Assembly (NCBI GenBank): GCA_001618605.1
Contig: LKHC01000155.1
Coordinates: 1 to 48,199, forward strand
Direction of reading: 5' to 3'
DNA: 48,199 nt
Source of the DNA: Candidatus Fermentibacter danicus
GTDB taxonomy: Bacteria > Fermentibacterota > Fermentibacteria > Fermentibacterales > Fermentibacteraceae
The translations under genes were made by a program, and so were the position numbers. The notes under the pieces were generated by a model. The model worked only from the letters and a program-made list of their open reading frames with translations. It did not search any database and was not told where the DNA came from. Of this stretch, positions 33,934 through 35,926 are shown piece by piece; the first letter of the stretch is position 1; each line of letters opens with the position of its first letter.

Positions 33934-33959
33934 CGAAAAACCGCCCGTGAGGGGCGGTC
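33934..33959 (-). terminator. Intrinsic terminator in the metK leader (attenuator)
   Basis: On the minus strand ACCGCCC (33958-33952) and GGGCGGT (33946-33940) form a 7-bp GC stem with a five-base loop, followed by five T residues ending in TTTTTCG. It lies 20 bases upstream of the metK start and 15 bases after the SAM-II aptamer. Because it sits between promoter and gene, it must be conditional. Confidence 0.88.
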
Positions 33960-33974
33960 ACAGGCTGATGAAAC

Positions 33975-34031
33975 GGCCTTTTAGCACTTTTTTTAACGTG
34001 GTTGCAATACGCCCCAAATCACTCCACGATC
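33975..34031 (-). promoter_or_regulatory. SAM-II riboswitch aptamer controlling metK
   Basis: Read on the minus strand, P1 is CGTGG (34028-34024) with CCACG (34001-33997). The loop contains GATTT, then GGGGC, then GTATTGCA; the 3' strand is GTTAAAAAAAGTGCTAAAA followed by GGCC. Order and spacing match the H-type pseudoknot of the known SAM-II aptamer: GATTT and GTATTGCA in loop 1, GCTAAAA in the 3' segment. Loop-1 GGC can pair with the terminal GCC to close the pseudoknot. It starts about five bases after the predicted transcription start. SAM-II is known mainly from Proteobacteria and Bacteroidetes, usually upstream of metA, metX or metK. Confidence 0.85.
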
Positions 34032-34141: not shown

Positions 34142-35926
34142 TCAGATGTCGGTGTATTCGGCGGCTTCCAGTATGAGCGCGTTCATGGACGGATCCTCAT
34201 CGGTGCTGGGCTGGGTCATCGCCTCGGAGAGATGCTCCGACAGGTCGAACATGGATTCCGCGAACCTGTTCAGGATCGACTCGTCGTGCAGCTTCTTGAG
34301 CCGGGCCTCCTCCTCCCTCTCCTTCCTCTCCGTCTCCGCCTTCACCACCTCGGCATAGGCGGCGCCCTTCAGCTTCTCGAGGTAGGCCTTTCCGGAGCTG
34401 TCCGGGAAGAGGTAGTACAGGAGCTTCTCCTGCTCGGTCTCCGCGATGGGGATCTCCGTTCCGGGGAGGGTGGGGATGTCGCGCCTGAACTGCGAGGAGT
34501 CGTAGCTACGCTCGTCGCGGAATCCGCAGACCTCCTCGCGGTAGGAGGCATCGATCGGGAAGGGCGTCTTGCCGTAGTACCCGGCGATGAGGTTCACATA
34601 CTGTACAGGGTTCGTATCCTTGCCCAGGGCGGTGAAATAGGACTTTACCCCGACTATCTGGGATGTGGGCGTCACAAGGGGCACCCATCCGGCCTTCGAG
34701 CGGACCTCCTGGACTGCGTCCAGGGCCTTGTCCATGTACTCGCTCTTCCCATCCCTTGCGAGCTGGTTCACGAAGTTGCTGTACATGCCCCCGGGTATCT
34801 GGGACTTGCGCACAGCCTCGCTCGGAGGAGGGAATCCGCAGGCGGCCTCGATCCTGTGTACCGTTTCGAGAGCCTGGGCGATCCTGCCCTCCGAGAGATG
34901 ATCCAGTGTCTTCTCCGCGAGCGGGGCCAGGGCGTCGCGTCCGGGCCAGACCGACCTGTGGACCTTGAGCCCGAACTTCTTCTCGCACTCCTCTATGGAG
35001 TTCGACAAAGAGGCATGCACCCTGCCCAGCATCTTCGGATCGAGGTCGAGTCCGGTATCTACGCCGAGGATTTCGGCGAACAGGGCAACGACCTCCAGCG
35101 AGGGATGCGACGAGCCTCCGGCGAAGGGGAGGAAGCACACGTCGATCGAATCCACTCCGGCCAGAAGGGCGATCACCGCGCTGATATGGCCGTAGCCCGG
35201 CGTGCAGTGCGTGTGGCTGACCACCGGAACCTTCAGGCGATCCTTCAGCGTAGTGTAGTACTCCCAGGCGCTGACCGGATCCTTGAGCCCCGCCATGTCC
35301 TTGTCGGAGATCATGTCGGCGCCGGCGGCCTCGAGCTCCAGGGCCTTGTTGACGAAATACGAAGTCTTGTAGAGTGGGCCGGTGGTGTAGCAGACGGCTC
35401 CGTCGAAGACGCCGCCCGCCTCCCTGACGCCCTCGAGGGCCGCCTTGTAGTTGGGTATGTAGTTGAGCGCGTCGAAGATACGCATGATGGTAGTGCCGGA
35501 GCGAACGGACTCGCGGTTGAAGTCACTCACTATGTCGTCCGGATAAGGGTCGTAACCGAACAGGTTCTGGCCTCTCGAAAGCGTTCGCAGGCCGCAGGAA
35601 TAGGGCCTTGCGAGATCCGACATCCGCCTCAGGCGATCGAACGGGTTCTCGTCCAGGAAGCGCATCGCACTGTCGAGCGTGGCGCCGCCCCAGACCTCCA
35701 TGGTCTTTATGCCGCAGTCGAGTATGAGAGGCATGGCATCGAGGACCTGGTCGGTGGACATGCGGGTGGCAAGCAGCGACTGCTGTCCGTCGCGGAGGGA
35801 GAGGTCCACCAGTCCGACCGGGCCGCGAGGCCTCGCTGTCATCCTGGGTCCCTGTCCACCGTGCGAGAATAGCTTCTTGAACATCAGGGGAGACTCCATC
35901 CGGGAAAGGTTATCCGAACCGGTCAT
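34142..35926 (-). CDS. Biotin-dependent carboxyltransferase subunit (PycB/OadA type), no biotin domain
   Basis: 594 residues. The TIM-barrel carboxyltransferase domain is clear: VDLSLRDGQQSLLATRM (40-56, metal Asp and Arg), MEVWGGATLDSAMRFLDENP (76-95), the carbamylated Lys in MISDKDMAGL (about 208-217) and the metal histidines in SHTHCTPGYG (about 240-249). The conserved PYC_OADA domain follows (about 300-470, with QIPGGMYSNFVNQL). It then ends in a charged helix (KAETERKEREEEARLKKLHD) instead of the AMKM biotinyl domain, so a separate biotin carrier is needed. Substrate could be oxaloacetate, pyruvate or methylmalonyl-CoA (transcarboxylase 5S type). The mutase at 19868 makes a propionate-type role attractive. 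GAGGG precedes the ATG. Confidence 0.88.
   Translation of the reverse strand: MTGSDNLSRMESPLMFKKLFSHGGQGPRMTARPRGPVGLVDLSLRDGQQSLLATRMSTDQVLDAMPLILDCGIKTMEVWGGATLDSAMRFLDENPFDRLRRMSDLARPYSCGLRTLSRGQNLFGYDPYPDDIVSDFNRESVRSGTTIMRIFDALNYIPNYKAALEGVREAGGVFDGAVCYTTGPLYKTSYFVNKALELEAAGADMISDKDMAGLKDPVSAWEYYTTLKDRLKVPVVSHTHCTPGYGHISAVIALLAGVDSIDVCFLPFAGGSSHPSLEVVALFAEILGVDTGLDLDPKMLGRVHASLSNSIEECEKKFGLKVHRSVWPGRDALAPLAEKTLDHLSEGRIAQALETVHRIEAACGFPPPSEAVRKSQIPGGMYSNFVNQLARDGKSEYMDKALDAVQEVRSKAGWVPLVTPTSQIVGVKSYFTALGKDTNPVQYVNLIAGYYGKTPFPIDASYREEVCGFRDERSYDSSQFRRDIPTLPGTEIPIAETEQEKLLYYLFPDSSGKAYLEKLKGAAYAEVVKAETERKEREEEARLKKLHDESILNRFAESMFDLSEHLSEAMTQPSTDEDPSMNALILEAAEYTDI

Follow-up and report, generated by a model that had tools for sequence, protein, structure and literature searches.

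The SAM-II aptamer (RF00521), described as the metA motif (Corbino et al. 2005, PMC1273637), consists of a stem P1, a loop 1 with the conserved segments GAUUU...UUGCA, a GCUAAA element and a pseudoknot P2; a terminator lies between P2 and a downstream gene of methionine or SAM metabolism. A 2007 survey placed SAM-II aptamers mostly in front of terminators, the mechanism then being without experimental proof (PMC2258182). In Sinorhizobium meliloti, the terminator of the metA leader has been validated, and no SAM-II-driven antiterminator could be predicted there; for metZ, a terminated small RNA is seen in vivo with higher SAM (PMC9373788). In SAM-I and other transcriptional OFF riboswitches (PMC2258182), an antiterminator keeps hold of the 5' arm of the terminator until ligand binding disrupts it; such antiterminators are typically provided by the closing stem or the 3' strand of the aptamer. 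The switch proposed here would follow the same logic, with the hairpin loop of the aptamer as the antiterminator strand.

The window, a stretch of 48,199 nucleotides from Candidatus Fermentibacter danicus (contig LKHC01000155.1), carries a leader on its minus strand, to which all coordinates below refer. Judged by its sequence, it is a real SAM-II transcription-attenuation riboswitch of metK, and SAM binding is predicted. The aptamer (34037-33961) matches the Rfam model RF00521 (SAM_alpha) with 40.2 bits (E 1e-05; gathering score 36 bits) and a phylum-specific model, R1, with 84.7 bits; the P1 stem and the conserved GAUUU, UUGCA and GCUAAA are all present. In the Rfam alignment, CGUGG (34028-34024) and CCACG (34001-33997) form the two strands of P1, and loop 1 corresponds to GAUUUGGGGCGUAUUGCA (34020-34003), as also in alignment A2. 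The 3' strand of P2 is the conserved GCUAAAAGGCC (33985-33975), whose GCC (33977-33975) pairs with loop 1; compensatory P2 pairs are found in relatives (GGU/ACC in L031 and L099, GAC/GUC in L029). Within about 20 nt of the aptamer, as in S. meliloti metZ (PMC9373788), an intrinsic terminator follows, GACCGCCC-CUCAC-GGGCGGUU plus U tract (33959-33936; 33959-33939 in the terminator search). It sits between the aptamer and the start codon of the controlled gene, metK (methionine adenosyltransferase, 33914-32745; TIGR01034, 514.9 bits), which begins about 20 nt past the U tract. Just 5' of P1, the sequence offers a candidate -10 element, TATAGT (34047-34042), and relatives have TTGAC...TATNAT at the matching position; a sigma-70 consensus scan of the window found no site. 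5' of the leader lies a gene (34142-35926) for a divergent protein resembling pyruvate carboxylase subunit B/oxaloacetate decarboxylase alpha, which scores below every curated cut-off.

A model made from the aptamers of the phylum itself finds the riboswitch in 35 of 42 Fermentibacterota genomes, in exactly one copy each, and all inspected leaders of relatives lie upstream of metK; a search of phage records yielded no SAM-II. Unlike in the original description of RF00521 (PMC1273637), the aptamer occurs here outside Proteobacteria and controls metK. It is a typical representative of a known riboswitch class, in a phylum that has been little studied and for which the open-licence papers searched report no riboswitch.

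A first-pass annotation of the window had noted that GGGGCG of loop 1 (34015-34010) is the perfect complement of CGCCCC (33956-33951); both bases and coordinates were verified. CGCCCC spans the 5' arm and the loop of the terminator, with five nucleotides in the arm and the final C in the loop. The GGC (34013-34011) within the loop-1 segment is at the same time a strand of the P2 pseudoknot, and at the sequence level P2 and the alternative helix exclude each other, as both use loop 1. The UUU of loop 1, which is likewise part of the alternative helix, presumably lines the SAM site, as we read the SAM-II crystal structure; using both this UUU and a P2 strand, the helix would exclude the SAM-bound fold. 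The unconstrained fold of the leader includes GGGGCG:CGCCCC, lengthened by GUGA (34022-34019) paired with UCAC (33950-33947). By itself, the 6-bp match in the window is weakly above chance: Watson-Crick runs of at least six with loop 1 arise in 8-10% of dinucleotide shuffles of the downstream stretch, and the duplex energy is no better than that of shuffles (P 0.11 when the loop is counted, P 0.54 for the 5' arm alone). Its significance therefore has to come from a phylum-wide comparison.

For this purpose, 33 leaders from nine genera were compared after removal of duplicates; one of these leaders (L029) is without a recognised terminator. In genera other than the window's, loop 1 reads UUUGAGG(Y) or UUUGGGG and pairs with a conserved segment, (R)CCUC(A/G..). 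The CCUC of this segment ends at the start of the terminator stem or within 2-3 nt of it; in the other terminator-bearing genera, the partner of loop 1 is located beside the stem, overlapping at most its basal 2-3 pairs. Among 30 distinct leaders from seven genera, the window's genus excluded, 87.8% of the cells are standard pairs, and sliding the partner by 1-4 nt leaves 27-56% (maximum 55.6%). When partners were permuted between leaders, the observed value was reached in 13 of 5000 trials, and swapping partners while comparing duplex energies gave P ~0.006 for 18 leaders with the window's genus left out, P=0.0004 for 20 leaders including it and with arm and loop counted in the partner, and, with one leader per genus, P ~0.016 with and 0.09 without the window's genus, values from permutation and swap tests in which shared ancestry is not fully corrected for. 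Co-variation of the terminator arms across genera served as a strong positive control of the swap test. One pair between loop 1 and CCUC alternates between C-G, U-A and U-G. Across the phylum, the complementarity of loop 1 and the expression platform is conserved and shows covariation. Here, unlike in RF00521 as described (PMC1273637), it is loop 1, and not the P2 3' strand alone, that has a conserved platform partner. The open-licence papers searched contain no loop-1 antiterminator for SAM-II, and the contact between loop 1 and the platform is unreported as far as this literature shows. In genus g9, the metK leader L031 keeps the aptamer, the loop-1 partner and the hairpin and has lost the U tract, which suggests a non-terminator platform.

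The form of the pairing seen in the window is not shared. Relatives keep aptamer and terminator, but the match of loop 1 inside the terminator arm and loop amounts to 2-4 nt in all other genera; the 6-nt match and the position of CGCCCC are specific to the window's genus. Its two leaders read GCCUGUGACCGCC at the pre-terminator site, where aligned family members read GCCUCAGACCGCC, so that the ancestral-type partner has decayed; the duplex of this site with loop 1 is worth -6.4 kcal/mol, versus -15 in the remaining two genera of the family. By this alignment, GCCU (33965-33962) is a remnant of the relatives' pre-terminator partner GCCUC. In the fold, it can pair with AGGC (33979-33976) in a small hairpin, a rival of P2; AGGC and GCCU are kept in both members of the genus, and the hairpin loops differ. 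Alongside the decay, the aligned leaders indicate, loop 1 became GGGGCG, and arm and loop became CGCCCC. The first-pass annotation suggested a check for covariation between loop 1 and the terminator 5' arm. Covariation is seen for loop 1 and the platform across the phylum; for the arm, the genus offers none: the two leaders are identical in loop 1 and terminator, and the third genome, G001, gives no leader, as its assembly, 77% complete, yielded no aptamer and has metK only from residue 136 on.

These observations could be accommodated in the following manner: In the presence of SAM, loop 1 and the 3' strand would form the P2 pseudoknot, the terminator would fold, and transcription of metK would stop. 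In the absence of SAM, loop 1 would stay free until a C-rich stretch of the platform captures it. We put this reading, SAM-II attenuation of metK with loop-1 capture in the absence of SAM, at somewhat below even probability; SAM binding, the co-transcriptional formation of the helix and the lowering of termination by it are all inferred. In most Fermentibacterota, the capturing element would be (R)CCUC(A), which adjoins the terminator stem on its 5' side and reaches into the basal 2-3 pairs; any effect there would have to come via hindered basal pairs, hindered completion of the stem or steric crowding. In the window's genus, CGCCCC would capture loop 1 instead of the old site, now decayed to GCCU; as CGCCCC covers the loop-closing half of the 5' arm, capture there would block nucleation of the terminator. 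The more specific proposition, that Fermentibacterota have an expression platform of their own, in which loop 1 and not the 3' strand is captured ahead of the terminator in the absence of SAM, and that its partner moved into the arm in a single genus, is possible but distinctly tentative.

Folding models agree with this scheme in part. They are nested equilibrium models, in which the pseudoknot is omitted, P1 is broken and differences of 2-3 kcal/mol are not to be trusted; in the Sargasso metX SAM-II, probing showed P1 protected with and without SAM (PMC10907184). Within these limits, the predicted probability of the terminator in the window is 0.09 for the free leader; masking loop 1 brings it to 0.993, masking the P2 3' strand to 0.30 and masking both to 0.93. 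L003, a congener whose loop 1 and terminator are the same as in the window, already reaches 0.996 as a free leader; sub-transcripts that end in the terminator loop favour capture of loop 1 in both congeners. In the relatives, masking loop 1 alone usually fails to raise, and often lowers, predicted termination, and the loop-1 helix and the terminator core can coexist. Loop 1 thus excludes both the terminator and the ligand-bound aptamer in the model of the window, but not in L003 or most relatives. An extension of the loop-1 helix into the arm by the P1 5' strand (GUGG/CCGC), an idea formed by eye, is absent from the folds. A role of loop 1 as antiterminator is plausible for the window on the strength of its model (0.09 free, 0.93 masked), whereas the term "simple OFF switch" used by the first-pass annotation overstates the evidence, given L003 and the location of the relatives' partner outside the arm.

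The best-surviving alternative assigns the switching to the 3' strand of P2 (GCUAAAA-GGCC), whose partner without SAM would be the 3' arm and U tract of the terminator or a local segment, the loop-1 match of the window being incidental. Such pairs with the 3' arm and U tract exist in most genera. In L023, L024, L039, L096 and L098 (g7/g8), they form the predicted antiterminator: with the P2 3' strand masked, predicted termination goes up by 4-10 kcal/mol. The same strand also has platform partners elsewhere. The 5' arm of the terminator (CCGGUC/CCGGCC) in S. meliloti metZ and in Shinella leaders repeats the P2 strand of loop 1; the P2 3' strand GGCCGG can therefore pair with it and is the natural antiterminator strand. 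The alphaproteobacterial sample is small: few leaders came from the plasmid search and one new locus from the class of L035. In leaders from the class of L050, which includes contigs titled Latescibacterota and Gemmatimonadota (L104-L107, L109, L115-L122, L126 and L128), the aptamer's GCUAAAAAGY pairs over 8-11 nt with the U-rich terminator loop RCUUUUUAGY/GGC and co-varies at the ends (AAGUC/GACUU in L121, AAGC/GCUU in L105), and several have two such terminators in tandem. For alphaproteobacterial metZ and this Latescibacterota-class set, sequence comparison makes the P2 3' strand the likelier switching strand. The Fermentibacterota 5' arm, unlike that of S. meliloti metZ, does not copy the P2 strand of loop 1; the P2 3' strand shows no cognate preference for the 3' arm and U tract in the phylum (swap test P 0.26-0.58), and masking it in the window shifts termination by 0.9 kcal/mol versus 4.5 for loop 1. 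For the window, we regard this alternative as rather unlikely.

Two further sets of contacts were noticed. The P2 3' strand has a third partner, AGCCGA:UCGGCU, just past the U tract in 11 of 11 g5 leaders (5-6 nt) and in g6 (5 nt), e.g. L006, L012, L014 and L019; together with its loop-1 GAC, AGUCGGAU:AUCCGACU in L029 represents a three-way change. This partner may lock the read-through mRNA out of the SAM-binding fold. Outside the phylum, L137, from a class reached via L035, has a loop 1, UUGUGGCG, with a perfect 8-nt downstream complement, CGCCACAA, and L108 of the same class has GCGUAU:AUACGC at a similar place; by sequence, both are possible independent loop-1 contacts.

A less probable explanation is that the 6-bp match arose by chance, loop 1 being rich in G and the terminator arm rich in C, with the terminator being a mostly constitutive attenuator or SAM acting by another route. 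The shuffles (P 0.08-0.10), the short matches to arm and loop in all other genera and the terminator predicted for the free state of L003 are in line with it; the conserved and co-varying pairing of loop 1 with the platform across the phylum, and the weakness of the homologous site exactly where the arm match is strong, argue against it, and we consider it unlikely. That CCUC is instead an anti-Shine-Dalgarno element, the switch being translational with loop 1 as the anti-anti-SD, is very improbable and was rejected: CCUC does complement GAGG-type ribosome sites in many leaders, and L031 keeps it although the U tract is lost, but it shows no cognate preference for its own SD region (P 0.33 and 0.72), and L006, L010 and L025 keep the loop-1 pairing despite weak SD pairing.

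Capture of loop 1 appears to be a feature of the Fermentibacterota platform, where it may work together with the P2 3' strand. For three groups of SAM-II platforms, the comparison points to strands that can be put to the test: loop 1 in Fermentibacterota, the P2 3' strand in metZ of alphaproteobacteria and again the P2 3' strand in the Latescibacterota-class set.
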